Positions 7,115 to 29,095 of a stretch of DNA of 45,566 nucleotides are shown here, piece by piece (position 1 is the stretch's first letter; each line of letters starts with the position of its first letter). A model generated the notes under the pieces. The model was given only the letters and a program-made list of their open reading frames with translations. It was not told the origin of the DNA and made no database searches. Location: contig JAJZEC010000028.1 in the NCBI GenBank assembly GCA_021805825.1, positions 1 to 45,566 on the forward strand. The letters are read 5' to 3'. This DNA comes from Pseudomonadota bacterium. GTDB taxonomy: Bacteria > Pseudomonadota > Gammaproteobacteria > Burkholderiales > Burkholderiaceae_C. A program made the translations under genes and the position numbers.

Positions 7115-8029
7115 TCAGACGGTCGCTCCACGCCTGGGCGATGCCGATCCCGACCCCGCGAGCAGCCGATCCAGGCGCTCCAGGCGGTGGCGGTGGGTGG
7201 TGGTGATGGCGTAGAAGTGTTCCTGCAACTGGTTCGAGCGGCCGACGGTGAGCAGGCGCCCGGAGCGCAGTTCGTCCTGCACCACGACCTCGGGCAGCAC
7301 GGTCAGCCAGCCGCTGTCGCGGGCGATCAGCCGCAGCATGGCCATGTCGTCGACCTCCGCGCGAAAGCGCGGCCGCACGCCGGCGGCCAGGCACAGCGCG
7401 TCGAACTGCGCGCGCAAGGCATGGCGCGGCCCCGGCACCGCCAGCTCCACCCCATGCAGATCCTCGGGCAGTCGCAGGCTGCGGCCCTTCCAGGTGCGCG
7501 CCGCGCCGACCAGGGAAATCGCCTGGCTGCCCAGGAAGCGGCAATGCAGGGGGCGCTCGACCTCCGCGGCCACCGCCTCGTTGGCCAGCACCACGTCGAG
7601 CCGGTGCTGCAGCAGGCGTTCGAGCAGATCGTCGAGCATGCCCGATTCCAGCGTCAGCGCCACCGCGGGATCGACCAGCAGCGGGCGGATCCAGTTCTCC
7701 TGGTAGTTGCGCGACAACGTGGCCACGCTGCCCACGCGCAAGCGCAGCATGCCTTCGCTCTGGCCGTCCAGGCGGCCGAGCAATTCCTGGCCGAGGCCGA
7801 AGATGTCCTCGGCGTAGGCCAGCACCAGCTGCCCGGCGTCGGTCAGCGCCAGGCGGCGGCCGTCGCGCTCGAACAGCGCCTGGCCCAGGCGATCCTCGAG
7901 CTGGCGGATCTGCGTCGACAACGCCGACTGCGATACGTGCAGTTCCTGCGCAGCCCGCGTGAGATGGCCGATGCGGGCCACGCGCCAGAAGTACAGCAGA
8001 TGGTGGAAGTTCAGCTGCTCGAGGTTCAT
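7115..8029 (-). CDS. LysR-family transcriptional regulator, NhaR-like, probable dab regulator
   Basis: This 304-residue regulator has an N-terminal winged helix-turn-helix (residues 1-65; LTRAAQELHVSQSALSTQIR is the recognition region) and a C-terminal effector-binding domain. The FHHLLYFWRVAR start and the overall sequence are closest to the NhaR subgroup. It is divergent from dabB across 94 bp that hold a perfect inverted repeat with LysR-type TTC-N9-GAA spacing. Known DAB loci of autotrophs also carry a LysR gene, so control of dabBA, perhaps in response to inorganic carbon status, is a reasonable inference. Autoregulation is likely from the shared intergenic region. Confidence 0.85.
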   Translation of the reverse strand: MNLEQLNFHHLLYFWRVARIGHLTRAAQELHVSQSALSTQIRQLEDRLGQALFERDGRRLALTDAGQLVLAYAEDIFGLGQELLGRLDGQSEGMLRLRVGSVATLSRNYQENWIRPLLVDPAVALTLESGMLDDLLERLLQHRLDVVLANEAVAAEVERPLHCRFLGSQAISLVGAARTWKGRSLRLPEDLHGVELAVPGPRHALRAQFDALCLAAGVRPRFRAEVDDMAMLRLIARDSGWLTVLPEVVVQDELRSGRLLTVGRSNQLQEHFYAITTTHRHRLERLDRLLAGSGSASPRRGATV

Positions 8030-8123: not shown

Positions 8124-9704
8124 ATGCACCAACATCTGCAACCCTGGTTCGAAGCGGCGGCGCTGGCGCCTGCCCTGCTCATGTTCGTGGCCGCCGCGGG
8201 ATTGCGCCTGCAGCGGCGCGATGACGCGACGGTCTGGCCGCGCCTGCTGCTGCCCGCCGTGCTGGCGCTGGCCTGCGCGCTGCTGGCGCTGGGCTGGCAG
8301 ATCGGGCCGGATGGGGCGCCCGCGGCCGCCGCGGGCACGCCGCTGCTGCCCGGGCTGGCCAGCTGCCGGCTGGCGGCCTGGGTCGCGGTGCTGGTGCAGT
8401 TCCTGGGTCTGGTGATCAGCGCGTTTTCCGCCCGCTACCTGCAGGGCGAGCCGGGGCAGGCGCGCTACGCGTCGGCGCTGGCCCTGGTGCTGGCCAGCGT
8501 GCAACTGCTGTTGCTGGCCGGGCAGTGGCTGGTGCTCATCGCGGCCTGGGCGCTGGCCGCTGCCGCGCTGCACCGCCTGCTGTGCTTCTATCCGGAGCGA
8601 CCCTTCGCGCTGCTGGCCGCGCACAAGAAGCGCCTGGCCGACCGCATCGCCGACCTGTTGCTGCTGGCGGCGGCGGCGCTGGCCTGGCAGGCCACCGGCA
8701 GTGGCTCCCTGGATGCGCTGGGCCCCTACCTGGCACGGCACGCGGCGTCGCCCGAACTGCAGGCCAGCGCGGTGCTGCTGGTGCTGGCGGTGCTGCTGCG
8801 TACCGCGCTGCTGCCGGTGCACGGCTGGCTGGTGCAGGTCATGGAGGCGCCGACCCCGGTTTCGGCGCTGCTGCATGCCGGAGTGGTCAACCTCGGCGGC
8901 TACGTGCTGATCCGCTGCGCGCCCCTGCTCGACGCGGTGCCGGCGGCGCGCTGGCTGCTGGTCGCAGGCGGCCTGGCCACCGCGGTGCTCGCCGGGCTCG
9001 TGAGCCTGACGCGCATCAGCATCAAGGTGCGGCTGGCCTGGTCCACGGTGGCGCAGATGGGTTTCATGCTGCTCGAGTGCGGGCTCGGCCTGTACACCCT
9101 GGCTGCGTTGCACCTGATCGGGCATTCCCTCTACAAGGCCCATGCCTTCCTGTCGGCTTCCGGCGCGGTTCGGCAATCCGGCCTCTCGGCGTTGCGCGGT
9201 CATCCGCGCCCGGCGCCGGCGACGCTGCTGGCGGCGCCGCTGGCCAGCCTGGCGGTGCTCGCGCTGCTTGCCGCGGCGCACGCCCCGTGGCCGTGGTGGT
9301 GGAGCGGGGTGCTGGCGCTGGCCTGGGCGCCCCTGCTGTGGCTGCCCGCCCGCGGCACGCCGCGCGCGCCCTGGCTGTGGCAGGCGGGCGCCGCCCTGCT
9401 CACGCTGATCGGGCTGTGCGCCGCCGCTTGGCTGGTGCACCATCTGCGGCTGGGCGTGGTGTCGCGGCCGCAGGGATTGTCTGGCCTGGTTGCGCTGGCC
9501 GGCATGGGCTTGCTGTATGCCTGCCTGGCCGTGTCGCGCTGGCGCCCGCAGGCGCTGGCCGGGCTGCGCCGCTGGTGCTACGCCGGCTTCTACCTCGACG
9601 AGGCCTATACCCGGGTCGCGCTCTGGCTGTGGCCGGCGCGCTGGGGCGGCGGGGCGGCGCGGCAGGCCCGCGCCGCGGCCGCCACGGCGATGGCCGCCGA
9701 TTGA
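8124..9704 (+). CDS. dabB: DabB, proton-conducting membrane subunit of the DAB inorganic carbon pump
   Basis: The 526-residue integral membrane protein belongs to the proton-conducting family of NuoL/MrpA-like antiporter subunits, with about a dozen hydrophobic segments. Its conserved core includes the PTPVSALLHAGVVNLGGY region near residues 244-261 and LTRISIKVRLAWSTVAQMGF near 295-315, followed by the HLIGHSLYKAHAFLSAS signature. Followed by a DUF2309 gene, it is DabB, which couples the proton gradient to CO2-to-bicarbonate conversion by DabA. The start at 8124 has AGGAG at 8106-8110, a slightly long spacing of 13 nt. DabA begins 20 bp after the stop, so the two form an operon. Confidence 0.92.
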   Translation: MHQHLQPWFEAAALAPALLMFVAAAGLRLQRRDDATVWPRLLLPAVLALACALLALGWQIGPDGAPAAAAGTPLLPGLASCRLAAWVAVLVQFLGLVISAFSARYLQGEPGQARYASALALVLASVQLLLLAGQWLVLIAAWALAAAALHRLLCFYPERPFALLAAHKKRLADRIADLLLLAAAALAWQATGSGSLDALGPYLARHAASPELQASAVLLVLAVLLRTALLPVHGWLVQVMEAPTPVSALLHAGVVNLGGYVLIRCAPLLDAVPAARWLLVAGGLATAVLAGLVSLTRISIKVRLAWSTVAQMGFMLLECGLGLYTLAALHLIGHSLYKAHAFLSASGAVRQSGLSALRGHPRPAPATLLAAPLASLAVLALLAAAHAPWPWWWSGVLALAWAPLLWLPARGTPRAPWLWQAGAALLTLIGLCAAAWLVHHLRLGVVSRPQGLSGLVALAGMGLLYACLAVSRWRPQALAGLRRWCYAGFYLDEAYTRVALWLWPARWGGGAARQARAAAATAMAAD

Positions 9705-9724: not shown

Positions 9725-12280
9725 ATGCACGATCTTGCAGAGAATCCGGCGCAAGGCACGCCCCCGAACGCCGCGGCGCCCGCGGCGGATCCGCGGCAAA
9801 GCTTCGACCACAGCGCCTGCGACCCCCGCGTCGAGCGCGCCTGCGCCCAGGCCTGCGCCAGCATCGCGCCGGCCTGGCCGCTGGATCGATCGATCGCCGT
9901 CAACCCGCATTGGGGGCGCATCGGCCGGCCGCTGCGCGAGGTCGCCGCGCGCATGCAGGCACTGGCCGGCATCCAGGTCTTTCCCCCGCGCGCCATGCTG
10001 CGCCAGGCGTGGGAGCAGCAGCGCATCACCCCGGAGCAGCTGGAGCAGGCCTTGCGCGCGCTGCCGCAGGCCGTCGATGCCGGCCTCGGCCCGCAGAGCT
10101 GCATCGACGCCCTGCGCGAGGCGCCGCGCATCCAGCGCCTGCCCCTGCTCATCGACATCCTCGACGACGATCCGCGGGGGCATGCCCGACTGAGCTGGCG
10201 GCAGGCCATCACCCACCAGCTGAGCCAGTGCTGCGCGGCGTATTTCGACCGCGGGCAGGCCGACTGGCAGCCCGCGCGTGGCGAGGGGCTGTATGCGTTC
10301 TGGCTGCGCAGCCTGCGCCACGACCGGGGTATTGGCCTGCTCATGGGCCTGCCGCGCCTGCACCACAGCCTGCATGCGCTGCCGGCCACGCGCGCGCAGG
10401 CCGAAGCGTGGGCCCTGCAGCGCCTGGGGCTCGACGAGGCAAGCTGGGCAGATTACCTGGAGGCCGTGCTGCTGAGCATCCAGGGCTGGGCTTCATGGTG
10501 CGCCTATCTGGGCTGGGACGCCGCCCAGCAGGGACGGCAGGATTCCCACCTGCGCGAGCTGCTGGCCATGCGCCTGGCCTGGGGCGCGCTGCTGCTCGAA
10601 TGCAAGGACGATGGCGCGGCGCGGCGCGCCTTCGCCGCGGTGCGTGCGCAGTGGTCGCGTGCGAGCGTGCTGCTGCAGCAGGCGCAGCAGGCCCTGCTGG
10701 TCGACGAGGTCTGGCAACGGGCCTACGAGGCCGGCTACCAGCATCAGCTGCTGCGCAGGCTGGCCACGGCGGGAGCCGCTCCGTGCGCGCAGCCGCCGCA
10801 GGTGCAGGCGGTGTTCTGCATCGATGTACGAAGCGAGCCGATGCGGCGGGCGCTGGAGGCGGTGTGGCCGCAGGTGCACACCCTGGGCTTCGCGGGCTTC
10901 TTCGGGCTGACGCTGCAGTACACGCCGCTGGCCACCGCGGCGACCAGGCCGCAGCTGCCCGGCCTGCTGGCGCCGTCGCTGCAGGCCGTCGACCGCATGG
11001 TTCCGGCCGGCGCGGCCAGCGCTTCCTCGCTCGCGGCACTCGACGCCGAGGCCGCCGATGCGCGTCTGCGCCGCTTTGCCGCCGAGGCGCCCTGGCAGGC
11101 CGCGGGACGCTGGCCGGGGGCGGCGTTCTCGCTGGTCGAGGCCGCAGGCCTGGGCTACCTCGGCAAGCTCACGCGCTGGCTGCTGCCCACGACGGCGCCG
11201 CGGCAGCGCGACGACCTCGACGGCCTGCCGCCGCGCTACCGCAGCATCTGCCGGCCGTTGCTGGATGGGCTGGACGCCTCGGAACGGGTGGAGCTGGCGG
11301 CGCGCGTGCTGCAGGCGATGGGCCTGCGGCGGGATCTGGCACCCCTGGTGCTGCTCGTCGGGCATGCCAGCCAGAGCGCCAACAACGCGCATGCGGCAGC
11401 CCTCGACTGCGGCGCCTGCTGCGGGCAGAGCGGCGAGGTCAACGCCCGCGCGCTGGCGCAGTTGCTGAACGACCGGCTGGTGCGCGAGGGGCTGTGCGCG
11501 CGGGGCATCGACATTCCCGGGGCGACGCACTTCGTCGCCTGCCTGCACAACACCACCACCGACGAGATCGACGGGCTCGACCTCGACCTGCTGCCGCAGG
11601 ACGCGCAGGCGCGCTGGCAGCGGCTGCAGCCGGTGCTCGAGCAGGCCGGCGATCAGGCGCGGCGAGCGCGCGCAGCGCGCCTCGGCATGGACGCGCGAGC
11701 CGACGCGCGGCGCCTGCTGCGGCAGTTGCGCAGGCGCGCCAACGACGGTGCGCAGACACGCCCCGAGTGGGGCCTGGCCGGCAATGCCGCGCTGCTCATC
11801 GCGCCGCGCAGCCGCAGCCTGGGGGCGGTGCTCGACGGGCGCTGCTTCCTGCACGACTACGACTGCGGGGCGGACGCCGACGGCGCCCTGCTCGAGCAGC
11901 TGATGACCGGCCCGCTGCTGGTCGCGCACTGGATCAACTGGCAGTACCACGCATCGACCTGCGACCCGGCGCACCTCGGAGCCGGCAACAAACTGCTGCA
12001 CAACGTGGTCGGCGGCAACATCGGCGTGTTCGAGGGCAACGGCGGCGACCTGCGCCCGGGTCTGGCGCTGCAGTCCTTGCACGACGGCGGGCGCTGGATG
12101 CACGAGCCGCTGCGCCTGAGTGTGCTGATCGAGGCGCCGCAGCGGCTCATCGAGCAGGTGCTCGGCCGCCACCAGGTGCTGCGCGACCTCGTCGACAACG
12201 GCTGGCTGCACCTGCTGTGCATCGACTCCGACGGCAGCATCCGCCAGCGCGGCGGGGCAGGGCACTGGCGTGTCGCCTGA
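9725..12280 (+). CDS. dabA: DabA, DUF2309 zinc-dependent carbonic anhydrase-like subunit
   Basis: This 851-residue DUF2309 protein is the cytoplasmic partner of DabB. The beta-carbonic-anhydrase-like zinc site is intact. Cys365 and Asp367 lie in FCIDVRSE, His547 lies in LLVGHASQSANN and Cys562 in ALDCGACCGQ. These correspond to C351, D353, H524 and C539 of Halothiobacillus DabA, with identical local spacing. The complex is thought to convert CO2 to bicarbonate vectorially, accumulating inorganic carbon for fixation. The start is ATG 9725, with GGAG about 9 nt upstream; the frame is open further upstream but overlaps dabB. Ends convergent with the cytochrome operon. Confidence 0.93.
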   Translation: MHDLAENPAQGTPPNAAAPAADPRQSFDHSACDPRVERACAQACASIAPAWPLDRSIAVNPHWGRIGRPLREVAARMQALAGIQVFPPRAMLRQAWEQQRITPEQLEQALRALPQAVDAGLGPQSCIDALREAPRIQRLPLLIDILDDDPRGHARLSWRQAITHQLSQCCAAYFDRGQADWQPARGEGLYAFWLRSLRHDRGIGLLMGLPRLHHSLHALPATRAQAEAWALQRLGLDEASWADYLEAVLLSIQGWASWCAYLGWDAAQQGRQDSHLRELLAMRLAWGALLLECKDDGAARRAFAAVRAQWSRASVLLQQAQQALLVDEVWQRAYEAGYQHQLLRRLATAGAAPCAQPPQVQAVFCIDVRSEPMRRALEAVWPQVHTLGFAGFFGLTLQYTPLATAATRPQLPGLLAPSLQAVDRMVPAGAASASSLAALDAEAADARLRRFAAEAPWQAAGRWPGAAFSLVEAAGLGYLGKLTRWLLPTTAPRQRDDLDGLPPRYRSICRPLLDGLDASERVELAARVLQAMGLRRDLAPLVLLVGHASQSANNAHAAALDCGACCGQSGEVNARALAQLLNDRLVREGLCARGIDIPGATHFVACLHNTTTDEIDGLDLDLLPQDAQARWQRLQPVLEQAGDQARRARAARLGMDARADARRLLRQLRRRANDGAQTRPEWGLAGNAALLIAPRSRSLGAVLDGRCFLHDYDCGADADGALLEQLMTGPLLVAHWINWQYHASTCDPAHLGAGNKLLHNVVGGNIGVFEGNGGDLRPGLALQSLHDGGRWMHEPLRLSVLIEAPQRLIEQVLGRHQVLRDLVDNGWLHLLCIDSDGSIRQRGGAGHWRVA

Positions 12281-12283
12281 AGC

Positions 12284-12318
12284 AAAAAACCGGGGTGCCG
12301 CTCGCGCGGACGCCCCGG
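12284..12318 (-). terminator. Rho-independent terminator of the cytochrome/porin operon
   Basis: On the minus strand, CCGGGG (12318-12313) and CCCCGG (12295-12290) pair, with an inner CCGC/GCGG stem, and are followed by six T residues (12289-12284). It lies about 50 nt past the mtrB/mtoB stop at 12368. The A-run also lets part of the hairpin act on dabA from the other side. Confidence 0.75.
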
Positions 12319-12367: not shown

Positions 12368-14812
12368 TCACTGGAAGGAGTAGGTGTACTCGGCGTAGAT
12401 GGCGCTGATCGATGCCGATGGGTTCTGCACGTTCCACGGCAGCACCGCGGTGGCCGTGTAGCCCATCTGCTGCGCCAGGTACATGTAGTCGTTGACCTCG
12501 TAGCGCGCGTACAGGTAACCCAGTTGCAGCTTGGCGTGCGGGTTGAACTTGTAGGTTCCGTTCAGATCCAGGCGGGTGATCCGGGTCTTGATGTCCGGCA
12601 CCGTGCCGCAGGTGTAGCCGCTGGTGCTCGGAGTCGTGCAGTAGGTGTTGACCACCGCGAAGTTGGCGCCCGGTTGCACCGCGGTCGAGTAGCTCGTGGT
12701 GTCGTCCGAGTACGTCAGCTTGGCGCCCAGGCTCAACTTGTCATCCATCAGGCCGCGCTGCTTGAAGCCCGCGCCCAGCGTGATGGCCTGATCCGTCGCA
12801 TCGGTCATCCACTCGAAGGGATACTGGGTGCGCACGCCGCCGACCGTGATGCGCTGCGATCCGGCGGACAAGGTGCCGCTGGTCTCCCGCTGCCAGGTCG
12901 CGAACAGGCTGGCGGTGGCGTTCTCCCGAACCTGGAAGTCGCCCTGCAGGTCGACGGTGGCATCGTGACCGCTGCGGCGGCCCAGCGCGGTATCGCCGTA
13001 CTGGTCGTTGCCGAAGCTGCCGTCGACGCTCAGGTTGACCGCCGAACTCGGCGCCCAGCTCAGGCCGAAGTGCGCCTGCTCCTGCTTGCGTGATCCGTCG
13101 AAGAAGGCCACCCAGCCCGGCTGGTCGTTCTCCCCGTTGCCGGCGATCGTGTCGTCGGTGATCGGGTTGTAGTAGTAGGGGTTGAGGGTCGCCGTGCGCT
13201 TGGCGTACTTCAGGCCGGCACGCAGGTTCAGGTTGTCGCCGTAGCGCAGGAAGTAGTCGACCTTGCCGGTGTTTTCCGAGCTGTCCGGCACCGCCGCGCA
13301 TCCGGTCGGGCTGTAGTCGTTGCCGTCGGCGGCAAGGATCGTCTGTCCGAGGTAGGCGGTGCTGTCGCACCAGCGCCGGATCTTCTCGTTCTGCGCGGAA
13401 AGGTGCAGCCGTTGTCCCGGCATGAAGCGCCAGTCGGCAGCCAGCTTGCTCTGCAGGTGGCTGTTGCTCATCGGGATGTTGTAGACGCTGAACCAGTCCG
13501 TGGTCGGCCCGCTGTCGGGCGCCTCGAAGTTGTACAGGTTCGACGGCGTCTGGTTGTCCCGCTTGCTGTAGATCATGCCGGCCGAAAGCGTCAGGTTGCG
13601 CGTCGTCTGGTTGCTCAGGCTCCAGTTGGCGTGCTGCGTGACGACCAGGCCGTTGAGCGAGCCCACGGGCAGGTTGAGCAGGCTCGTCGGGCCGGTGCCG
13701 ATCTGCGCCGGCTCGTAGGCGTAGGACATGTTCTGGGTGTTGCGCCCGTAGGTGTAGCCGCCCACCAGCTGGGTTCGCGGACTGAAGCGGTAGCCGCCGC
13801 TGAACTGCAGTTCGTTGTCGGAATTGCTCGGCGGCAGCGATTCGACGTCCATCGGGTAGGTGCTGCCCGCCGCCGCCGCGGTCGTGCCGCTGCTGACATA
13901 GGGGTTGGCGAACCAGACCCCGTTGTAGTCGTCGTGGAACATCGACCCGTAGTACGCGCCGGTGAAGAATCCCTTCTCCCCGGCCCAGTTCAGCGCGAGG
14001 TTGAAGTTGTTGGTCTTGTACTGGGTCGGATAGGGCAGCCCGAGCAGGCGCTGTCCACCCAGGTTCGATGAACTCCCGGTGAATGTGGCTCCGGTGACCG
14101 AATCGACGATGGCCGAGGCCAGGATCGACCCGCTTTCGCGGATGTTCGTCCAGTCGAAGGTCATGTTCCAGCCTTCCTTGAACTGGTGGCTGGCCGAGAA
14201 CCGGGTCGTCGCGCGCTGGACGTAGAGGTGATCCGTGTGGAAGAACTGCTGCTGGTCGGGGGTCAGTGCCTGGGTGCCGACCAGGCCGCTGGCGTTCTTG
14301 TAGCTGGGGTTGATGTAGCCGAAGGTCGACGGCAGGGTGAACACATTGCTGCCCGGAGCCCCGACCAGCGGGGTCTGGAAGCTGCCCGGGTTGCTGACCA
14401 GGGAGTCGCCGCCGTAGTTGCGCAGCTGGTCGAAGCTCAGGCCGACGCTCCAGTTGCCCTGGTCGGCCATGCCCCCGGAGATCGACCGCGAGGTCGTCCC
14501 CAGGTTCTGGCCCTGCACGAACCAGGTGTTGGCTCCGGGCTGCTGGCCGTAGCCGTTGCCTCCGCGCAGGCTGAACCCGCCCAGCAGCGTCGGCCCGGAG
14601 TTCTCCAGCCCGTTGTACTGCCCGAACAGATCGGAGTCGTGGTTGCTGTAGATGCCTCCGATGCTCAGGGTGTCGGTCGGGGCGATCAGCGCCTGCAGGG
14701 CACTGTCGGCCATGGCTGCCGGGGCGATCGACGCCACGGCGAGGGTGGCAAGGGCGGCACGCAGGGCGACGGTCAGGGGCCGGGCGCGCAGCACGCTGTT
14801 GCGGTGTTTCAT
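12368..14812 (-). CDS. mtoB: MtrB/PioB/MtoB-family outer-membrane barrel (decaheme-associated porin)
   Basis: The 814-residue protein has a long signal peptide ending near AAMA. The body alternates polar and aromatic strands and ends in an aromatic residue (YTYSFQ), as expected of a large beta-barrel inserted by the BAM machinery. The N-terminal pattern GGIYSNHDSDLFGQYNGLE is characteristic of the MtrB/PioB decaheme-associated family. The barrel would sheath the decaheme cytochrome encoded immediately upstream, forming a transmembrane electron conduit. The start at 14812 is chosen over an upstream start at 14854, since AAGGAG lies 7 nt before it and the upstream start would overlap the cytochrome gene. 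The N-terminal CXXC of Shewanella MtrB is not seen. The name mtoB is by analogy with Fe(II) oxidisers; pioB or mtrB fit equally. Confidence 0.87.
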   Translation of the reverse strand: MKHRNSVLRARPLTVALRAALATLAVASIAPAAMADSALQALIAPTDTLSIGGIYSNHDSDLFGQYNGLENSGPTLLGGFSLRGGNGYGQQPGANTWFVQGQNLGTTSRSISGGMADQGNWSVGLSFDQLRNYGGDSLVSNPGSFQTPLVGAPGSNVFTLPSTFGYINPSYKNASGLVGTQALTPDQQQFFHTDHLYVQRATTRFSASHQFKEGWNMTFDWTNIRESGSILASAIVDSVTGATFTGSSSNLGGQRLLGLPYPTQYKTNNFNLALNWAGEKGFFTGAYYGSMFHDDYNGVWFANPYVSSGTTAAAAGSTYPMDVESLPPSNSDNELQFSGGYRFSPRTQLVGGYTYGRNTQNMSYAYEPAQIGTGPTSLLNLPVGSLNGLVVTQHANWSLSNQTTRNLTLSAGMIYSKRDNQTPSNLYNFEAPDSGPTTDWFSVYNIPMSNSHLQSKLAADWRFMPGQRLHLSAQNEKIRRWCDSTAYLGQTILAADGNDYSPTGCAAVPDSSENTGKVDYFLRYGDNLNLRAGLKYAKRTATLNPYYYNPITDDTIAGNGENDQPGWVAFFDGSRKQEQAHFGLSWAPSSAVNLSVDGSFGNDQYGDTALGRRSGHDATVDLQGDFQVRENATASLFATWQRETSGTLSAGSQRITVGGVRTQYPFEWMTDATDQAITLGAGFKQRGLMDDKLSLGAKLTYSDDTTSYSTAVQPGANFAVVNTYCTTPSTSGYTCGTVPDIKTRITRLDLNGTYKFNPHAKLQLGYLYARYEVNDYMYLAQQMGYTATAVLPWNVQNPSASISAIYAEYTYSFQ

Positions 14813-14834
14813 CTCGTGCTCCTTGGGTCGTTCG

Positions 14835-15845
14835 CTAGCGATGCAGGTACGCACCAGCCGGGTTGTTCGAGCCGTGAACCATGATGTGGCAGTTCAGGCA
14901 GCCTTCTCCCACTCCACCGTCGGCCGGGCTTCCGGGGATGGCGCTGAATCCGGTCGCGGTCGAGGGCCCGGCGACTCCGGGGCCGAACATGTTGGCGCTC
15001 TGGTGCGGGCCGTCATGGCACTCTTCACACAGGAAGGGCGGGCGCGCCTTGAGCAGCGGGGCGATGTTCGAGCCGTGCGGGTTGTGGCAGTTGGTGCAGT
15101 TCTCCACCACCGGCTCGTGCTCCCACAGGAAGGGCCCGCGCTTGTCGGCGTGGCAGCTCCAGCAGGTCTCGTTGATGGTCGCCTTCTTCATCAGGAAGGG
15201 GCCGACCGAGCCGTGGGGGTTGTGGCAGTCCGAGCACATCATCTTGCCCTCGGGAACCGGGTGGTGCGAGAGCTTCATGAAGTCCGCGCGCCGATCCTTG
15301 TGGCAGGTGTAGCAGACGGTCTGCTGCATGCCCTTGGTGCGCACCGGGTCGACCGCGCTGTGCACCTTGTGGCAGTCGCTGCAGGCCAGGCCGTTGACCT
15401 GGTGCGGGCTGCCCTCCCAGTGCGTGCGCTGGGTTCCGGAGTGGCAGGCCAGGCAGGCCGAGGCGCGTTGCGATGCGCTCGACTCGGGGTACATGCCGCC
15501 CTTGTTGAACACCACGTCGGGTGGTGCGATCTTGCCGTTGACGGGGCCGCGCAGGTGCGCCAGGCTGGCGCCGTGGCAGCTCTGGCAGGTGGGTGTGCGC
15601 GGATCGCCGGTGACCCCCATCGGGGTCTGGAAGAACGCCAGCACGGGCTTGGATTCGTTCTCGTCGTGGCAGCGCGTGCACTTGGCGTCCTGCGCCAGGT
15701 GCTCCCTGGAACTCTGTGCGGCGCTGACTGGCGCCTGCTGCGATGCGCCGAGTGCCGGCAGCTCGATCTTGTCGGCATGCGCCGCCAAGCTCCAGCTTCC
15801 GAGCAGCACCGCGGCAGCCATGATGAATTTCCTGGAGGTCTTCAC
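14835..15845 (-). CDS. mtoA: Periplasmic decaheme cytochrome c, MtrA/MtoA/PioA family
   Basis: The 336-residue protein has a cleavable signal peptide (…SWSLAAHA) and exactly ten CXXCH heme-binding motifs, in order CTRCH, CQSCH, CLACH, CSDCH, CYTCH, CSDCH, CWSCH, CTNCH, CEECH and CLNCH. The length and the short spacing between hemes match MtrA/MtoA/DmsE decahemes; PioA of phototrophs has a longer N-terminus. It would form a heme wire inside the MtrB-type barrel. No surface cytochrome of the MtrC/OmcA type is in the window. That arrangement is more typical of electron uptake, as in Fe(II) oxidisers, than of metal reduction. The stop is 22 bp before the barrel gene, so the two are translated from one transcript. 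Confidence 0.92.
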   Translation of the reverse strand: MKTSRKFIMAAAVLLGSWSLAAHADKIELPALGASQQAPVSAAQSSREHLAQDAKCTRCHDENESKPVLAFFQTPMGVTGDPRTPTCQSCHGASLAHLRGPVNGKIAPPDVVFNKGGMYPESSASQRASACLACHSGTQRTHWEGSPHQVNGLACSDCHKVHSAVDPVRTKGMQQTVCYTCHKDRRADFMKLSHHPVPEGKMMCSDCHNPHGSVGPFLMKKATINETCWSCHADKRGPFLWEHEPVVENCTNCHNPHGSNIAPLLKARPPFLCEECHDGPHQSANMFGPGVAGPSTATGFSAIPGSPADGGVGEGCLNCHIMVHGSNNPAGAYLHR

Positions 15846-15886
15846 CGTTCGCTCCCCTGGGGTCGTTCGCTATGGGTTGGGATTCG

Positions 15887-15921
15887 TGATGCTTGATGGG
15901 TGATGCTTGATGCTTGATGCG
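15887..15921. repeat. Five tandem heptamers (TGATGNN) between two cytochrome genes
   Basis: Five consecutive 7-bp units start at 15887, 15894, 15901, 15908 and 15915. They read TGATGCT, TGATGGG, TGATGCT, TGATGCT and TGATGCG. They lie in the 89-bp gap between the monoheme and decaheme cytochrome genes. The pattern could be a slippage-prone tract or a translational or regulatory spacer. Confidence 0.7.
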
Positions 15922-15934
15922 CCGCAGCCCGGGC

Positions 15935-16276
15935 TCACTTCTTCAGGCTCAGGATCCAGTCGGCGACTTCGTCCAGCTCGGCCTTGCTCAGCGACGGGTT
16001 GGCGGGCATCGCGCTGCCCTGGACACCGGCATGCACGTCGCCTTCCAGCGCCTCCTCGCCCTTGTCCTCGCCCATCGCGGCGAACTTGGCCGCGATCTGC
16101 TTGAAGCCCGGGCCGACCTTGGTGCCGTCCATCGCGTGGCAGGTGAAGCACGAGTGCTCCTTGACCAGCCGGGCGCCGGCGCTCACGTCGTGTGCCTCGC
16201 CCGCGTGCGCGGCGGGCAGGGCGAAGGCGAAGGCGGCGGCGAGGCTGGCGATGGTGGCGAGAGCGGTGGTTTTCAT
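15935..16276 (-). CDS. Small periplasmic class I cytochrome c (MtoD-like position)
   Basis: The 113-residue precursor has a signal peptide ending at AAHA and a mature part of about 90 residues. It has one heme motif, CFTCH, and a distal methionine candidate in SAMPANPSLSK. It ends with the helix ELDEVADWILSL typical of class I c-type cytochromes (c5/c551-like). As first gene before the decaheme cytochrome and barrel, it is well placed to shuttle electrons between the outer-membrane conduit and inner-membrane carriers. This is the role proposed for MtoD in Fe(II)-oxidising Sideroxydans. The start at 16276 is used because the signal peptide begins there; an upstream frame extension is not credible. 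Confidence 0.88.
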   Translation of the reverse strand: MKTTALATIASLAAAFAFALPAAHAGEAHDVSAGARLVKEHSCFTCHAMDGTKVGPGFKQIAAKFAAMGEDKGEEALEGDVHAGVQGSAMPANPSLSKAELDEVADWILSLKK

Positions 16277-16525: not shown

Positions 16526-17176
16526 TCAGTCCAGCGCGGCGTCGGTCAGGCCGTGCTGCAGGGCGTAGCGCACGAGATCGACCTCGTGCGCTACCCCCAT
16601 CTTCTCGAGGATGTGCGCCTTGTGGGTGCTGACGGTCTTCACGCTCAGGCGCAGTTCGTCGGCGATGTCGGTCAGGCTGCGCCCGTCGACAATGCGCTGG
16701 AAGATCTCGAATTCGCGGTTCGACAGCAGGGTGTGCACCGGCACGTCGCGCGGCCGCGAGACGTCGGTGGCCAGCAGTTCGGCCAGCTTCGGGCTGACGT
16801 ACACCCCGCCGCGGGCGATCTTGCGCATCGCCCCCAGCAGCACGTCGCCGTCGACCTCCTTGGTCAGGTAGCCCGAGGCGCCGGCACGCATCGCGCGCAC
16901 CGCGTACTGCTCCTCCTGGTGCATGGTGAACACCAGGATCGGCAGGTGGGCGCGCTCGGCCTTGACCAGGCGGATCAGCTCCAGGCCGTTGCGCCCGGGC
17001 ATCGACAGATCCAGCACCAGCAGATCCCAGTCGCGCTCGCGCACGCGCTCCAGCAGGGTGTGGCCGTTGCTGGCCTCGCCGGCGCAGCGCAGATCCTCGG
17101 TGTCCTCGAGGATGTTGCGCAGGCCGTTGCGGATGATGGAGTGGTCGTCGGCCAGCAGTACTTCGAGGCGTTTCAT
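16526..17176 (-). CDS. NarL/FixJ-family response regulator
   Basis: The 216-residue regulator has an N-terminal receiver domain with acidic pair Asp10-Asp11, phospho-acceptor Asp56 in LLVLDLSMPG and the conserved lysine in YLTKEVD. A C-terminal LuxR-type helix-turn-helix lies at about residues 149-195, from SNREFEIFQRI to VKTVSTHKAHI. Its ATG overlaps the stop of the kinase gene by four bases (ATGA at 17176-17173), so the two are translationally coupled. It would bind DNA as a phosphorylated dimer. Its position next to the cytochrome/porin operon on the same strand makes that operon the leading candidate target, but no binding site could be confirmed. Confidence 0.93.
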   Translation of the reverse strand: MKRLEVLLADDHSIIRNGLRNILEDTEDLRCAGEASNGHTLLERVRERDWDLLVLDLSMPGRNGLELIRLVKAERAHLPILVFTMHQEEQYAVRAMRAGASGYLTKEVDGDVLLGAMRKIARGGVYVSPKLAELLATDVSRPRDVPVHTLLSNREFEIFQRIVDGRSLTDIADELRLSVKTVSTHKAHILEKMGVAHEVDLVRYALQHGLTDAALD

Positions 17177-19200
17177 GCCTGCGCTCCTTCGGTCTGCAGA
17201 TCCTGCAGGGGGATGTCCAGTTCCACGACGGTGCCTCCCTCGCCGGCCGCCGCGATGTGCAGCCGCGCGCCCAGTGCGGTGGCGCGTTCGCGCATGCTCA
17301 GCAGGCCGACGCCGGCGCCGATGCGCGAGGCATCGATGCCGCGGCCGTCGTCGCGCACGCGCAGCTGCAACTGCCCGGCGTCGGTGTGCAGTTCGATGCG
17401 TACCCGGGACGCCCCGGCGTGGCGCGCGACATTGGTCAGCGACTCCTGCACGATGCGGAACAGCGCGGTCGACAGCTCGTCGCCCTGCACCAGCCGGGTG
17501 GCGTCCAGCCGCAGTTCGACCTGGATGCCGGTGCGGTGCTCGAACTCCTTGGCCAGCCAGCTCAGCGCCTCGTCGAAGCCCAGGTCGTCCAGCATGCGTG
17601 GGCGCAGTTCGGTGGAAATGCGTCGCACCGAGGCGATCGCTCCGTCGAGCAACTGGCGCATGGACTCGAAGGTCTGCGGCGTCGGCTGGCGCCCGTCCCG
17701 CGAGCGCGCCACCAGGCGCGACAGATCCAGCTTGATGCCGGTGAGCAACTGCCCGAGGTCGTCGTGCAGTTCGCGCGAGATGCGCGCGCGTTCCTCCTCG
17801 CGCACCGTCTGCTGGGCATTCGACAGCCGACGCAGCTCGCGGTTCATCTGCCGGAGCTCGGCTTCGCGGCGCCGACGTTCGGTGACGTCGCGCAGCACCG
17901 CGGTGAACTGCACGGCGTCGCCGATGCGTGTCTGCGACACCGCCGACTCGACCGGAAACTCGCTGCCGTCGGCTCGCCGGCCGATGACCTCCATGTTGGA
18001 GGTCATGCCGCGCGTGGCCACGCCGGACGCGGCGAAGTCGCGCATGCGTGCCGCATGCGCATGCCGCAGCCGCGCCGGGATCAGCAGATCCAGCGGCTGG
18101 CCCAGCGCCTGCGCCGCGGGCATGCCGAACATGCGCTCGGCGGCCGGGTTGAACATGATGATGCGGTGTTGTTCGTCGACCGACACCATGGCGTCCATCA
18201 CCGAATCGATGGTGCGCCGGAAGCGGTCGTCGGCGTCGCGCAGCGCGCGGTCGAGCTGCTGCTCGCGTTGCAGCTCGTAGCTCAGCAGCAGCGCGGCGCC
18301 GCCGATGAAACCGCACACCAGCAGCGCGCCAAGTCCCACCGGGGCGGCCACCGCGCGCCACGAGGCGAGGGTGGCCGCGCGGTTCTCATCGACCCCGACG
18401 AGCAACGGCAGGCCGGGCACACGGGCCAGGCTGAACAGGTGGTCGCCGCCGCCGCTGCGCAGTACGTCGGCGTGCAGCAGCATGCCGGGTCGCGGCAGGC
18501 GCAGCCCGTCCAGCTCGGGCGCCGGCTGATCGAGCAGCGCATCGCGCCGCGGCAGGCTGGCCAGCAACGTGCCGTTGTCCAGGTACAGCGCGGTCGGGCG
18601 GCCGAAATCCTGCAGCACGTAGCGGTACAGCGACTCCAGCTGGTCGCTGCCGATGCCGGCCACGATCACCCCGCGCAGCGTACCGTCGGGATTGCGCAGC
18701 GCGCGCGCCAGGTGCAGCGTCCAGTCGGTGGTCAGGCGACTGGGCACCGGAGCGGCGATGTACAGGCCGTGCGCCTGTCCGCTCGCGAAGGCGCGGAAAT
18801 AGTTCCGGTCGGCCACCGAGACCGTGGGCATCGGATATGCCCGCGTCGAATTGACCACCAATCCCTGGGCGTCGACCAGGAACAGCGAGCCGCGCGTACC
18901 CAGGCCATGCGCATGCGCGGCCAGCAGCAGATGCACCGGAAGGCTGTCGAGCCCGAGGCGGCCGATGAAGGATGAGCTCAGGCGATCGGCGACCGTGCGC
19001 AGGGTGGCGTCGCTGCGCTCGAAGTTCTGCGCCGTCTGCTGCGCCAGCAGCCGCGTCAGGGTGTCGGTGCGCGCCGCGTCCTCGGCCATCGCGCGTGCGC
19101 GCAGGCCCCACAGCAGGGCCAGCACGCTGACCGCGATGGCCACGATGGTCAGCGCCGCGAACAGCCCGACCACGCGCACCGGCTGGATTCGCATCGCCAT
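17173..19200 (-). CDS. Membrane sensor histidine kinase with periplasmic dCache-like and PAS domains
   Basis: The 675-residue kinase has a transmembrane helix at about 8-30, a periplasmic dCache-like sensor (about 40-270, with the YPMPTVSVADRNYFRAF signature) and a second helix at about 280-305. A PAS domain follows at about 325-450 (DSVMDAMVSVDEQHRIIMFN). The HisKA_3 dimerisation helix has phospho-acceptor His near residue 478 in ISRELHDDLGQLL. The HATPase_c domain has DDGRGID and GVGLLSMRERA. The HisKA_3 type pairs with NarL/FixJ regulators, as found here. The start is uncertain: ATG 19200 is used, with ATG 19194 and GTG 19212 as alternatives; none has a good ribosome-binding site. The ligand is unknown, but dCache domains usually bind small organic or ionic signals. 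Confidence 0.9.
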   Translation of the reverse strand: MAMRIQPVRVVGLFAALTIVAIAVSVLALLWGLRARAMAEDAARTDTLTRLLAQQTAQNFERSDATLRTVADRLSSSFIGRLGLDSLPVHLLLAAHAHGLGTRGSLFLVDAQGLVVNSTRAYPMPTVSVADRNYFRAFASGQAHGLYIAAPVPSRLTTDWTLHLARALRNPDGTLRGVIVAGIGSDQLESLYRYVLQDFGRPTALYLDNGTLLASLPRRDALLDQPAPELDGLRLPRPGMLLHADVLRSGGGDHLFSLARVPGLPLLVGVDENRAATLASWRAVAAPVGLGALLVCGFIGGAALLLSYELQREQQLDRALRDADDRFRRTIDSVMDAMVSVDEQHRIIMFNPAAERMFGMPAAQALGQPLDLLIPARLRHAHAARMRDFAASGVATRGMTSNMEVIGRRADGSEFPVESAVSQTRIGDAVQFTAVLRDVTERRRREAELRQMNRELRRLSNAQQTVREEERARISRELHDDLGQLLTGIKLDLSRLVARSRDGRQPTPQTFESMRQLLDGAIASVRRISTELRPRMLDDLGFDEALSWLAKEFEHRTGIQVELRLDATRLVQGDELSTALFRIVQESLTNVARHAGASRVRIELHTDAGQLQLRVRDDGRGIDASRIGAGVGLLSMRERATALGARLHIAAAGEGGTVVELDIPLQDLQTEGAQA

Positions 19201-19278
19201 GTCGTTTCGCACCGTGCTTGCGGGCCCGACAGGTCCCGCCGTCGCGGATGCTAGGAGCGCAGACCGGAGGGGGTTTGC

Positions 19279-19445: not shown

Positions 19446-20075
19446 ATGGACAAGCCGGAACACGAACTGCGCGCCAGCGCCTTGAGCTGCCGCAGGGGGC
19501 ATCGCGAGCTGTTCGCAGGCCTGAGCTTCAGCCTGCGCGCAGGGCAATGGCTGCATGTGCGCGGAGCCAACGGCGCCGGCAAGACCAGCCTGCTGCGCCT
19601 GCTGACCGGGCTGGCGCGGCCGCAGTCGGGGCGCATCGAATGGAACGGCGTGGAACTGGCGCGCGCCGGCGAGGCGTATCGGGCGTCGCTGGCGTATTTC
19701 GGGCACGGCCACGGTGTGAAGGACGACCTCAGCGCGCTGGAAAACCTGCGCCTGGGCGCGGCCATCGACGGTCGTGCCCTCGACCGCGCCACGGCCGTCG
19801 GCGCGCTGGCCCGCGTCGGGTTGCGCGGCCGCGAGGATCTGCCCATGCGCGTGCTGTCGCAGGGCCAGCGACGGCGTGCGCTGCTGGCCCAGGTGATCAG
19901 CCGCGGCGCCAGGCTGTGGATCCTCGACGAGCCCTTCGCCGCGCTCGACGTCTCGGGCGTCGACATGGTGTGCGCGCTGGTAGGCGAACACCTGCAGCGT
20001 GGCGGCAGCGCGGTGCTCACCAGCCACCAGCCGATCGCGCTGGCTGGCGGCCAGAGCGTGGAGCTCGCGCTGTGA
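19446..20075 (+). CDS. ccmA: CcmA, ABC transporter ATP-binding subunit for heme-chaperone release
   Basis: This 209-residue ATPase has Walker A GANGAGKTS near residue 40, the signature LSQGQRRRALLAQ, and Walker B LWILDEPFAALD with the switch histidine in LTSHQP. These are hallmark features of CcmA, which with CcmB, CcmC and CcmD uses ATP hydrolysis to release holo-CcmE. It is the first gene of a complete ccmABCDEFGHI operon. Its stop overlaps the ccmB start by four bases. It is somewhat closer in sequence to other small ABC ATPases only in the generic motifs; the context makes the call firm. Confidence 0.95.
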   Translation: MDKPEHELRASALSCRRGHRELFAGLSFSLRAGQWLHVRGANGAGKTSLLRLLTGLARPQSGRIEWNGVELARAGEAYRASLAYFGHGHGVKDDLSALENLRLGAAIDGRALDRATAVGALARVGLRGREDLPMRVLSQGQRRRALLAQVISRGARLWILDEPFAALDVSGVDMVCALVGEHLQRGGSAVLTSHQPIALAGGQSVELAL

Positions 20076-20821
20076 AGGCCATCCGCGGCGTCGTGCAGGC
20101 CGGCGGCGGCGAGGCGGTGTTGCGCGCGCCCGCCGCCGATGCCGAGCCGCGCGCCACCAGCGCGATGCTGGCCATGCTGCGCCGCGAGCTGTTGCTGACC
20201 CTGCGCCGGCGCAGCGAGATCGCCACCGTCCTGATGTTCTTCGTCATCGTCGCCAGCCTGTTCCCGCTGGCCATCGGCCCGGAGCCGCAACGCCTGCGCG
20301 CGATCGGCCCCGGCGTGCTGTGGGTGGGGGCGCTGCTGTCGACCCTGCTCGGGCTGCACCGCATGTTCGCCGAGGACTACGCCGACGGCACGCTGGAGCA
20401 ACTGGCGCTGTCGCCTACGCCCCTGGCCTGGCTGGTCGCCGGCAAGATCGTCGCGCACTGGCTGGTGGCCGGGCTGCCGCTGGTGCTGCTGGCACCGGCG
20501 CTGGGCCTGCAGTACGGCATGCCGCCGGCGGCGCTGGCCCTGCTGGTCGCCGCCCTGCTGCTGGGCACGCCGCTGCTGTCGCTGATCGGATCCATAGGCG
20601 CCGCCCTGACCCTGGGCGCGCGCGGAGGCGGCGCGCTGCTCGCGCTGCTGCTGTTGCCGCTGTACGTGCCCGCGCTGGTATTCGGTTCCGGCGCGCTCAC
20701 CGCACAGGCCAGCGGCCTGGATTCCAGCGGCCACCTGGCGCTGCTGGGGGCGATGCTGGTCGTCGCCGCGTTCCTGGCGCCGATGGCGTCGGCCGCGGCC
20801 ATAAGGATAGCCATCGAATGA
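20072..20821 (+). CDS. ccmB: CcmB, ABC transporter membrane subunit
   Basis: CcmB is an integral membrane protein with six hydrophobic segments that partners CcmA, CcmC and CcmD in cytochrome c maturation. The start is taken as GTG 20072, which overlaps the ccmA stop as GTGA and has GGAG at 20060-20063 eight bases upstream, giving 249 residues. The E. coli protein has about 220 residues, so the ATG at 20165 (MLAMLRRELLLTLRRRSE, 218 residues) is a real alternative. The 31-residue N-terminal extension would then be absent. The core VLMFFVIVASLFPLAIGPEP and LHRMFAEDYADGTLEQL are typical CcmB sequence. Confidence 0.93.
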   Translation: MKAIRGVVQAGGGEAVLRAPAADAEPRATSAMLAMLRRELLLTLRRRSEIATVLMFFVIVASLFPLAIGPEPQRLRAIGPGVLWVGALLSTLLGLHRMFAEDYADGTLEQLALSPTPLAWLVAGKIVAHWLVAGLPLVLLAPALGLQYGMPPAALALLVAALLLGTPLLSLIGSIGAALTLGARGGGALLALLLLPLYVPALVFGSGALTAQASGLDSSGHLALLGAMLVVAAFLAPMASAAAIRIAIE

Positions 20822-21564
20822 ACACGCACAAGATCCGCTGGTACAAGTACTCCAGTCCGGCCACCTTCTACACCCTGGCCGGGCGCCTGGCGCCGTGGTT
20901 CGCCGCCGCCGCGCTGCTGTTCGCGATCGCCGGATTGTGGGTCGGCTTCCTTGTCGCCCCCACCGATGCCACCCAGGGCGATGGCTATCGCATCATCTTC
21001 CTGCATGTGCCGGCCTCGTGGATGTCCATGTTCCTCTACGTGGTGATGGCCTTCTGGGCGGCCCTCGGGCTGGCCTTCAACACGCGGCTGTCGGGCATGA
21101 TGGCCGCCGCGCTGGTGCCCACCGGAGCGATGTTCACGGCGCTGGCCCTGGTCACCGGCTCGCTGTGGGGCAAGCCGATGTGGGGAACCTGGTGGGTGTG
21201 GGATGCGCGCCTGACCTCCGAGCTCATCCTGCTGTTCCTCTACCTCGGGCAGTCGGCGCTGCGCGCGGCCATCGACGACGACAAGCGCGCCGACAAGGCC
21301 TGCGCGGTGCTGGCGCTGGTCGGCGTGGTCAACATCCCGGTGATCTATTTCTCGGTGCAGTGGTGGAACACCCTGCACCAGGGTGCGTCGATCTCCTTCA
21401 CCCACGCCTCGATGGCCACCACCATGCTGGTGGGCATCCTGCTGATGACCCTGGCGGCGTGGATGTACAGCATTTCCGTGGCCCTGACCCGCGTCAGGGT
21501 GATCATCCTGGAGCGCGAGCACGATGCCGCGTGGCTCGGGCAGTTGATGGAGGCTGCATCATGA
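20818..21564 (+). CDS. ccmC: CcmC, heme-handling protein of cytochrome c maturation
   Basis: The 248-residue protein (E. coli about 245) has six transmembrane helices and the tryptophan-rich heme-binding motif WGTWWVWDARLTSELIL. Conserved histidines in FLHVPASWMSM and FTHASM are the expected axial ligands of heme. CcmC loads heme onto CcmE. It overlaps ccmB by four bases (ATGA). The sequence is fully typical and shows no missing key residue. Confidence 0.96.
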   Translation: MNTHKIRWYKYSSPATFYTLAGRLAPWFAAAALLFAIAGLWVGFLVAPTDATQGDGYRIIFLHVPASWMSMFLYVVMAFWAALGLAFNTRLSGMMAAALVPTGAMFTALALVTGSLWGKPMWGTWWVWDARLTSELILLFLYLGQSALRAAIDDDKRADKACAVLALVGVVNIPVIYFSVQWWNTLHQGASISFTHASMATTMLVGILLMTLAAWMYSISVALTRVRVIILEREHDAAWLGQLMEAAS

Positions 21565-21803
21565 TCTGGCAATCGGCGTCCCAATTCTTCGCCATGGGGG
21601 GCTACGCCCTGTACGTCTGGGGCAGCGTCGCTGCCTGTGCCGCCGCGCTGTGCGCCGAGGTGGTCGCGCTGCGCCTGCGTCGACGCGCGGCGCTGGCCAT
21701 GGTGCGTCAACGCGACGTGGTGCGGCGCATCGACCGCATGGAGCGCGCGCGGCCCGCCGGCGAGCTCGGCATGGCGGTCGAACTGCGCAGGGAGGCGGCA
21801 TGA
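21561..21803 (+). CDS. ccmD: CcmD, small membrane protein of the heme-release complex
   Basis: The 80-residue protein has one transmembrane helix (about 13-38, GGYALYVWGSVAACAAALCA) with the FAMGGYALYVWGSY-like start of CcmD. It has a basic, charged cytoplasmic tail. CcmD is required to release holo-CcmE from the CcmABC complex. It is at the long end of the family (E. coli CcmD has about 69 residues). It overlaps both ccmC and ccmE by four bases, so it is easily missed as a gene but essential to the operon layout. Confidence 0.9.
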   Translation: MIWQSASQFFAMGGYALYVWGSVAACAAALCAEVVALRLRRRAALAMVRQRDVVRRIDRMERARPAGELGMAVELRREAA

Positions 21804-22240
21804 AGGCGCGCCGCCGCCGCGGCGCGCTGATCGTCGGTGGCCTGGCGGCACTCGGGCTGGCCAGCGCGCTGGTGCTGCATGCGCTGAACAGCGCCATCGA
21901 GCTGTACGTCACGCCGACGCAGATCGCCGACGGCGACGCGCCGCACGCCGCGTTGTTCCGGCTCGGCGGACTGGTCGAGCGCGGCAGCCTGCAGGAGCAT
22001 GGAACCAGCGTGCGCTTCGTCGTCACCGACACCGCGCGGCAGGTGCCGGTGGTCTACAGCGGCATCCTGCCCGATCTGTTCGCCCAGGGGCGCGGCGTCG
22101 TGGTGCAGGGCACCCTCGGCCCGCACGGCACCTTCCACGCCACGCAGGTGCTGGCCAAGCACAGCGCCAACTACATGCCTCCGGAAGCGCGCAATGCGAT
22201 CGCGCAGGCGCAAAGGATGCAAGAGGAAGCAAGACCATGA
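21800..22240 (+). CDS. ccmE: CcmE, periplasmic heme chaperone
   Basis: The 146-residue membrane-anchored OB-fold chaperone has one N-terminal helix and the covalent heme site LAKHSANYMPPE, with His121 and Tyr125 at the spacing of E. coli His130 and Tyr134. It carries heme from CcmC to the CcmFH ligase. The start at 21800 overlaps the ccmD stop by four bases and has GGAGG at 21791-21795. The short C-terminal tail after the heme motif is normal. Confidence 0.96.
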   Translation: MKARRRRGALIVGGLAALGLASALVLHALNSAIELYVTPTQIADGDAPHAALFRLGGLVERGSLQEHGTSVRFVVTDTARQVPVVYSGILPDLFAQGRGVVVQGTLGPHGTFHATQVLAKHSANYMPPEARNAIAQAQRMQEEARP

Positions 22241-24177: not shown

Positions 24178-24704
24178 ACAAGGTGCGCGCGGTGTCCATA
24201 CTCGCGGTGTTCTGCGTGCTGCTCGGCCTGCTGTACGTCGGGCTGCATCACGACCCACACACCATCCCGTCGCCGCTGATCGGCAAGGCAGCGCCGAGCT
24301 TCGATGCGCCGCTGCTCGAGCCTCCGGACAAGCCTTTCGACTCCTCGCAGATGAAAGGCAAGGTCTGGCTGCTCAACGTGTGGGCTTCATGGTGCACGTC
24401 CTGCCGCGAGGAGCATCCCCTGCTGCTGGCCTTCGCCCATGGGCGCCATGTGCCCCTCGTCGGGCTCGACTACAAGGACGATCCGGTGGCCGCGCGCCAC
24501 TGGCTGTCCGAGGCCGGCAATCCCTACGACCTGGTGGCGCAGGACGCCAACGGCCACATCGGGATCAATTACGGGGTGTACGGAGTGCCCGAGACCTATC
24601 TCATCGACCGCAACGGCACGATTGTGTACAAGCAGATCGGGCCGCTGACGGTGCATGTGCTGGAACACAAGCTGCTGCCGATGATCCGGAGGCTATCGCA
24701 ATGA
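24174..24704 (+). CDS. ccmG: CcmG/DsbE, thioredoxin-like reductant for apocytochrome
   Basis: The 176-residue membrane-anchored thioredoxin-fold protein has one N-terminal helix and the redox motif WCTSC (Cys74, Cys77), where E. coli has WCPTC. The cis-proline loop GVPETYLIDR and the acidic patch around LLNVWASWC match DsbE/CcmG. It reduces the heme-binding cysteines of apocytochromes with CcmH. It overlaps ccmF and ccmH by four bases. Confidence 0.96.
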   Translation: MNKVRAVSILAVFCVLLGLLYVGLHHDPHTIPSPLIGKAAPSFDAPLLEPPDKPFDSSQMKGKVWLLNVWASWCTSCREEHPLLLAFAHGRHVPLVGLDYKDDPVAARHWLSEAGNPYDLVAQDANGHIGINYGVYGVPETYLIDRNGTIVYKQIGPLTVHVLEHKLLPMIRRLSQ

Positions 24705-25165
24705 AACGCATGCTGGGAACCCTGCTGCTGCTGTTGCTGGCGCTGCCTGCCTATGCCGGGCTGGCCCGCCCGCTGGCGCACAACGAGGCCATCGAACAGC
24801 GCATGATCGCGCTCACCCGCAACCTGCGCTGCCTGGTGTGCCAGAACGAATCCCTGGCCGCGTCGCAGGCCGACCTGGCGCGCGACCTGCGCGGCGAGGT
24901 GCGCGGCCTGCTGGAGCGCGGCTACACCAACCAGCAGGTGGTGGCCTATCTGGTCGCGCGCTACGGCAACTACGTGCGCTACAGGCCACCCTTCGACGCC
25001 GAGACCTGGGCCTTGTGGCTGGGACCTTTCGCGCTGCTGGCGCTGGGCCTGGCGACGCTGGGCCTGGCCATCCGCCGCCGCCAGCGACAGCCCGACGCAC
25101 CGCTGGACGAAGCGCAACGCGAACAGGCGCTGGCCATGCTGGCGCACAGCGGAGAAGGCCGATGA
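24701..25165 (+). CDS. ccmH: CcmH, N-terminal thioredoxin-like domain protein (LRCxxCQ type)
   Basis: The 154-residue protein has a signal peptide (LALPAYA), the signature LRCLVCQNESLA (Cys44, Cys47) and a C-terminal transmembrane helix before a short basic tail. It corresponds to the N-terminal domain of E. coli CcmH (CcmL in some species). The C-terminal TPR part is encoded separately as ccmI, the usual split outside Enterobacteria. It forms part of the heme ligase with CcmF. Confidence 0.95.
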   Translation: MKRMLGTLLLLLLALPAYAGLARPLAHNEAIEQRMIALTRNLRCLVCQNESLAASQADLARDLRGEVRGLLERGYTNQQVVAYLVARYGNYVRYRPPFDAETWALWLGPFALLALGLATLGLAIRRRQRQPDAPLDEAQREQALAMLAHSGEGR

Positions 25166-29082: not shown

Positions 29083-29095
29083 CCCGGGGTCGGCG

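Follow-up and report, generated by a model that had tools for sequence, protein, structure and literature searches.

A candidate MtoAB-like electron conduit with a His/Met cytochrome c in a Burkholderiaceae_C genus

The locus examined here raises the question of which way electrons move through an outer-membrane conduit, and which periplasmic partner it serves. It lies in a 45,566-nt stretch of a Pseudomonadota bacterium (Burkholderiaceae_C; assembly GCA_021805825.1, contig JAJZEC010000028.1), hereafter the window, and comprises genes for a decaheme cytochrome, an MtrB/PioB-family barrel and a monoheme cytochrome c. Our preferred reading, to which we assign a probability of roughly 0.5, is that an MtoAB-like conduit is connected to a high-potential cytochrome c and probably draws in electrons from solid donors, next to a Cyc2-like protein encoded elsewhere in the genome; the direction of flow itself is something that sequence cannot settle. 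An earlier note on this DNA had placed the three genes in one minus-strand unit ending in a good terminator, and profile matches, motif count and fold bear this out:

12368..14854 (probable start 14812), minus strand: MtrB/PioB-family outer-membrane barrel (TIGR03509 336 bits, cut-off 240; PF11854 E 4e-94)
14835..15845, minus strand: MtrA/MtoA/DmsE-family decaheme cytochrome, 336 aa (TIGR03508 281 bits, cut-off 192; ten CXXCH counted)
15935..16276, minus strand: monoheme class I cytochrome c (PF00034; PDB matches c551/c552)
12284..12318, minus strand: intrinsic-terminator-like hairpin behind the barrel gene (sequence and fold)

The decaheme protein contains exactly ten CXXCH motifs, the first at residue 56 of 336, and the other CXXCH motifs of the window are single, lying in overlapping frames or in open reading frames (ORFs) of other families. 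The monoheme protein has a signal peptide apparent by eye and predicted His/Met ligation (AMPANP loop). No CXXC lies near the barrel N-terminus; two close Cys pairs further along this protein (residues 496/519 and 739/749) are possibly loop disulfides. The hairpin has a stem CCGGGG...CCCCGG followed by six U, although a strict terminator scanner reported 0 terminators, and the 116-nt stretch that holds the hairpin is only modestly more stable than shuffled sequences (z -1.7). As the earlier note had said, the window holds no surface MtrC/OmcA-type and no CymA-type gene.

Homologues were found in 25 of 369 class-wide genomes drawn evenly (the window's own counted), and none in two sampled genomes from other genera of the same family. 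The best two matches outside the genus, in genomes G044 and G240 (loci L093 and L094; G and L numbers are our own), show the order monoheme-decaheme-barrel-NapC, and loci with an MtrC context scored lower. Loci are called mto-type by gene order plus a match to MtoD (PDB 4XXL), the named proteins of Sideroxydans lithotrophicus ES-1 being absent; the only named anchor in the trees is Shewanella baltica MtrA (PDB), with TIE-1 and S. oneidensis proteins likewise absent. In the decaheme tree (48 rows), the window genus, a Rhodanobacter metagenome-assembled genome (MAG) and Methylococcales group together at 95/93; support for the union of this group with three mto-context rows is low, at 82/48. The barrel tree (41 rows; without L007, L100 and L111, with L106 not entered and L107 and L118 lacking a full barrel ORF) recovers the same union of window group, Methylococcales and mto-context loci at a Shimodaira-Hasegawa-like approximate likelihood ratio support (SH-aLRT) of 99. 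In the approximately unbiased (AU) test, forcing the window group (16 rows) together with six MtrC-context decahemes was rejected (p 1e-56), as was forcing it with the sole Mo-reductase-context row, L112, itself a long branch (p 0.002); a tree that unites window and mto rows but leaves Methylococcales outside was not rejected (p 0.35). The clustering with MtrAB or DmsEF for which the earlier note proposed a check is rejected, for DmsEF on the single row L112, and sequence kinship supports a closer tie of the conduit to mto-type loci than to MtrCAB. The fit to MtoA/MtoB/MtoD rather than metal reducers holds for decaheme and barrel only, the monoheme lacking the bis-His loop of MtoD.

Some of the sampled loci have layouts of their own. 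In the mto-like L018 (4688-9391) a 4-heme gene, identified by heme count rather than by profile scan, stands between monoheme and decaheme; close to the decaheme-barrel pair of L097 (genome G109; 4272-6371 and 7044-7439) lie a protein with 8 hemes and a cytochrome b561 domain and a monoheme resembling MtoD, an MtoC/CbcL-like layout; and the decaheme-family protein at 8881-9867 of L095 (G064) carries eleven CXXCH, the same genome having a second cluster, L096.

The shuttle sets the window apart from these nearest loci. MtoD is bis-His (PMC4412085); the monoheme of L094 matches its structure (4XXL) at 7e-34, and the DGHEE..H loop is kept in the monohemes of L018, L093, L094 and L014-L017, with a variant in L011. 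Within the genus, sampled as 28 congeneric genomes of which 16 carry the conduit and 12 do not, all 16 conduit bearers have instead a Met loop resembling that of His/Met c551/c552, AMPANP-like except for MMMAHP in G007 and G016 (in G007 the monoheme lies on a different contig from most of its decaheme). Against the PDB, the window monoheme matches 6kq1 (3e-11) and c551/c552 chains best, with MtoD sixth (1e-9), and its identification as MtoD was rejected on the missing bis-His loop and the His/Met c551-type loop in its stead. If the monoheme genes are orthologous by position, a swap from bis-His to His/Met would have taken place on the branch to the window genus.

The host genome comprises 3.35 Mb in 110 contigs, of which the window is contig 79, and is rated as 100% complete; one TIGR03508 decaheme is encoded in it. 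The genome yielded no match to NapC/CymA (PF03264), for which the E. coli control was positive and the MtoC/CbcL type was outside the search, and none to OmcA/MtrC (TIGR03507), a model whose cut-off none of 14 control genomes passes, leaving that negative without a positive control. Because no NapC match was found, the conduit probably exchanges electrons with the cytochrome c pool and not directly with quinones. Of RuBisCO and cyc2, which the earlier note had suggested seeking along with MtrC/OmcA, the first turned up as a single form I large chain with small chain and CbbQ; for the second there is a candidate, a 460-aa Cyc2-like protein (AVPAFARQT...CIACH). In motif and length the latter fits the Cyc2 consensus (AXPXFAR[QK][TY] then CXXCH, at least 365 aa, porin; PMC8406198), while Pfam and NCBIfam leave its porin part unnamed; the motif by itself is no proof of iron oxidation. 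Two heme-copper oxidase subunits I lie above the cut-off and one fragment below it.

The conduit is flanked by regulatory and maturation genes on one side and by carbon-pump genes on the other:

16526..17176, minus strand: NarL/LuxR-type response regulator, RR (PF00072, PF00196)
17173..19212, minus strand: sensor histidine kinase, HK (PAS, HisKA_3 and HATPase domains)
19446..26421, plus strand: ccm cytochrome c maturation operon, divergent from the HK gene (profile matches)
9725..12280 (start about 9725), plus strand: DabA, inorganic carbon pump subunit (PF10070 860 bits)
8124..9704, plus strand: DabB, membrane subunit of the inorganic carbon pump (PF00361; PRK08168 616 bits)
7115..8029, minus strand: LysR-type regulator, divergent from dabB, a neighbour outside the conduit (profile match)

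A dCache match in the HK falls below cut-off. The ccm operon, described earlier as complete, is so for all genes except the small CcmD, which was not identified within 19446-26421: CcmB, CcmC, CcmE, CcmF, CcmH, CcmI/CycH and a DsbE-like redoxin are named, and an ABC ATPase occupies the CcmA position. As about 250 bp separate RR and monoheme, a second promoter in this gap is possible; no sigma-70-like site was found there. On the other flank, DabA (PF10070) is paired with membrane DabB as in DAB pumps, and the LysR-dabB-dabA cassette runs convergently with the conduit. Farther off lie MacAB-TolC-like efflux genes (27865-32651) and, at 39078-44743, genes for a xanthine-dehydrogenase-like Mo enzyme, a DUF6691 protein, an MgtC/DUF4010 protein and tRNA-Asp.

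Across the genus, the kinase tracks the conduit. The order ccmA, then HK-RR-monoheme-decaheme, is kept in 12 of the 12 loci with enough upstream DNA (L003-L008, L012, L019, L119, L121-L123), the barrel following the decaheme wherever the contig continues; the Rhodanobacter MAG locus (L011) also has HK and RR, but inverted. The kinase occurs in 16/16 conduit genomes against 2/12 others (matches E up to 1e-80; Fisher p 5e-6, the Fisher tests of co-occurrence used here ignoring phylogeny), and in 14 of the 16 it shares a contig with the conduit. In the two of the 12 that have the kinase (G009, G025) the contig stops at most 0.75 kb past it, so that the conduit cannot be judged there. Two of the 28 genomes are assembled in 3 and 6 contigs and might come from isolates; the one with 6, G003, carries the conduit.

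The carbon pump behaves differently from the kinase and ccm genes, whose adjacency to the conduit, reported in the earlier note, is conserved. No dab genes stand beside the barrel in any of the 11 relatives' loci with at least 5.8 kb downstream of it (L002-L007, L009, L010, L119, L121, L122; L008, L012 and L123, with less than 2 kb beyond the barrel, were left out), and in all 13 other genomes where conduit and DabA co-occur they are on separate contigs. Over the 28 genomes the conduit tracks neither RuBisCO (13/16 conduit-bearing versus 10/12 conduit-lacking genomes, 23/28 in total, p 1; the G007 match is a 28-position fragment), nor DabA (14/16 versus 7/12, 21/28 in total, p 0.10), nor the Cyc2-like motif (13/16 versus 11/12, 24/28 in total, p 0.61, a weak G015 match in a 27-aa frame included). 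As far as seen, then, dab adjacency appears peculiar to this genome and kinase and ccm adjacency does not; the pump beside the conduit looks like a local coincidence, and the lithoautotrophy island with its unusual dabAB co-location, as the earlier note had it, is rejected by synteny and co-occurrence. Two further observations concern the pump genes. In G001, G006, G017, G018, G022 and G023 no more than about 2.1 kb separates a DabA copy from RuBisCO, and several of these genomes have a second DabA elsewhere; in G003 and G021 a LysR-dabB-dabA cassette sits apart from the conduit (loci L120 and L151), its LysR 81-84% and its DabA 40-48% identical to those of the window.

How might such a conduit work? 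Passages of PMC12016527 describe ES-1 as making MtoAB only with a solid electron source and Cyc2 always. In the mechanism that we propose, a decaheme wire inside the MtrB/PioB barrel would let electrons cross the outer membrane without surface MtrC and would exchange them with the periplasmic His/Met (c551/c552-type) class I cytochrome c, which would take the place that bis-His MtoD holds in the nearest mto-type loci. Electrons would pass from an extracellular donor through decaheme and cytochrome c to a terminal oxidase, and quinol as well as NAD(P)H for the Calvin cycle would come from a reversed bc1 complex. The conduit would give electrons from solid donors a second way in, next to the Cyc2-like protein, and its own HK-RR pair may switch it in response to some signal. 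The mto kinship, the lack of OmcA/MtrC or CymA matches, a presumably high-potential acceptor, RuBisCO and the Cyc2-like protein all speak for uptake. A more specific version, which we put forward tentatively, is a quinone-bypassing Mto variant in which His/Met replaced MtoD and NapC was dropped, so that the conduit would deliver straight into the pool of cytochrome c and serve as a second, kinase-switched entry for electrons from solid Fe(II) or sulfide minerals.

Several considerations weigh against uptake. Low-potential hemes cannot be fed by dissolved Fe(II) at strongly acid pH, where it is too oxidising. The two oxidase subunits I may be parts of cytochrome c oxidases or of quinol oxidases; the conduit, as noted, does not follow RuBisCO; and G013, G015 and G021, at 90-94% completeness, have conduit and DabA with no RuBisCO match, either through real loss or through assembly gaps. 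According to parts of PMC8805035, MtoA and PioA form no function-specific clade, and trees do not separate direction. The sister clusters of Methylobacter, also without MtrC, are proposed in sections of PMC13322032 to export electrons, as an outlet to an anode. Portions of PMC10734462 indicate that MtrAB alone suffices for reduction of dissolved Fe(III) and that some iron-oxidiser MAGs carry MtrC, and for both reasons the absence of MtrC is weak evidence. Furthermore, in ES-1, as set out in part of PMC13390432, MtoD did not interact with MtoA and another monoheme, PmcA, did; a neighbouring monoheme therefore need not be the partner of a conduit.

Fe(III) is abundant and strongly oxidising in acid, and the conduit might run outwards: at low oxygen and without MtrC, electrons would pass from bc1 through cytochrome c and the decaheme to Fe(III) that is dissolved or poorly crystalline. 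The Methylobacter proposal, the sufficiency of MtrAB and the three conduit genomes lacking a RuBisCO match all favour such export, a serious rival that we rate as less probable than uptake. Against it, the genome has no CymA/NapC and no OmcA/MtrC match, a His/Met cytochrome c would be expected to lie above the decaheme potentials and make the outward step uphill, and the window barrel lacks the CXXC that occurs in 12/12 barrels whose neighbour is MtrC or a different large multiheme protein (L100 and L107 among the 12; L097, with its 8-heme cytochrome-b561-type neighbour and a barrel without CXXC, was left out). This motif serves as a direction marker only in part; none of the 14 window-genus barrels read has it, and it is missing too from the MtrC-less barrels of L095, L096, L108, L112, L115 and L116, with L111 and L114 less certain. 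Flow in both directions, set by conditions in a redox-buffering conduit whose amount the kinase tunes, would agree with MtrAB-type conduits described in passages of PMC8805035 and PMC10734462 as working both ways and with the branched routes that part of PMC13390432 proposes in ES-1. It strikes us as improbable, since a single-shuttle layout without a quinone partner gives little branching and the present analysis offers no direct evidence of it. Least probable by far is a DmsE/DmsF-type conduit serving a surface molybdenum reductase. The NCBIfam name of the decaheme, 'DmsE family', would suggest one, but the label is uninformative, the same model passing its cut-off on decahemes of MtrC, mto and Mo-reductase contexts alike; Pfam detects no Mo reductase in the window next to the conduit, the xanthine-dehydrogenase-like genes at a distance of 23 kb belong to another family, and the grouping with long-branch L112 was rejected.

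Uptake through an MtoAB-like conduit can also be set against known systems. The Mto system of ES-1 (MtoABD, CymA/ImoA) has the same monoheme-decaheme-barrel order, followed by NapC according to part of PMC5178258, and no MtrC, and the window barrel falls in one clade with mto-type loci; with it and with the Mto-like clusters of acidophilic Sideroxydans and Ferrovaceae treated in portions of PMC5178258 and PMC13390463, the host has a Cyc2-like protein and RuBisCO in common. The window differs in having no NapC-family partner, a His/Met rather than bis-His monoheme, and HK-RR and ccm genes conserved alongside, so that the conduit may work like MtoAB and yet is set apart from Mto systems, because two ES-1 features, MtoD and CymA/ImoA, are lacking. 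The Methylococcales clusters (Methylobacter, Crenothrix; passages of PMC13322032) have sister decahemes about 50% identical, sister barrels, the monoheme-decaheme-barrel order and no MtrC; they differ in an MtoD-like bis-His loop and in a downstream inner-membrane-anchored monoheme, and are the ones proposed for export. Shewanella MtrCAB shares decaheme and barrel, the window decaheme being 42% identical to S. baltica MtrA over 285 residues, whereas the window has no MtrC/OmcA match and no barrel CXXC and falls in a separate clade. Rhodopseudomonas palustris PioABC likewise pairs a decaheme and a barrel without MtrC, but the 336-aa window decaheme lacks the long heme-free N-terminal extension of PioA (PMC10654088), and no HiPIP (PioC) gene was seen beside the conduit among the window ORFs scanned, which took in some but not all small ORFs. 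For acid mine drainage, parts of PMC5178258 and PMC13390463 already describe Mto-like clusters that include NapC, while PMC10654088 gives MtoAB and PioAB as not reported in acidophiles; among the literature matches listed, supplements lying outside the search, no title names a NapC-less His/Met variant or a conduit of the window genus.

MAG site codes suggest acid mine drainage sediments as the habitat; should this prove correct, the genus would be another lineage from such drainage with an Mto-like conduit, next to those in the portions of PMC5178258 and PMC13390463 cited above. More broadly, the outer-membrane wire would be separable from the quinone partner by which pathways of this kind are usually defined, and the axial-ligand swap together with the lack of NapC may provide a sequence handle on direction in MtrAB-type conduits. 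With 28 genomes in which the conduit is present or absent and a kinase linked to it, the genus makes the question of direction testable.

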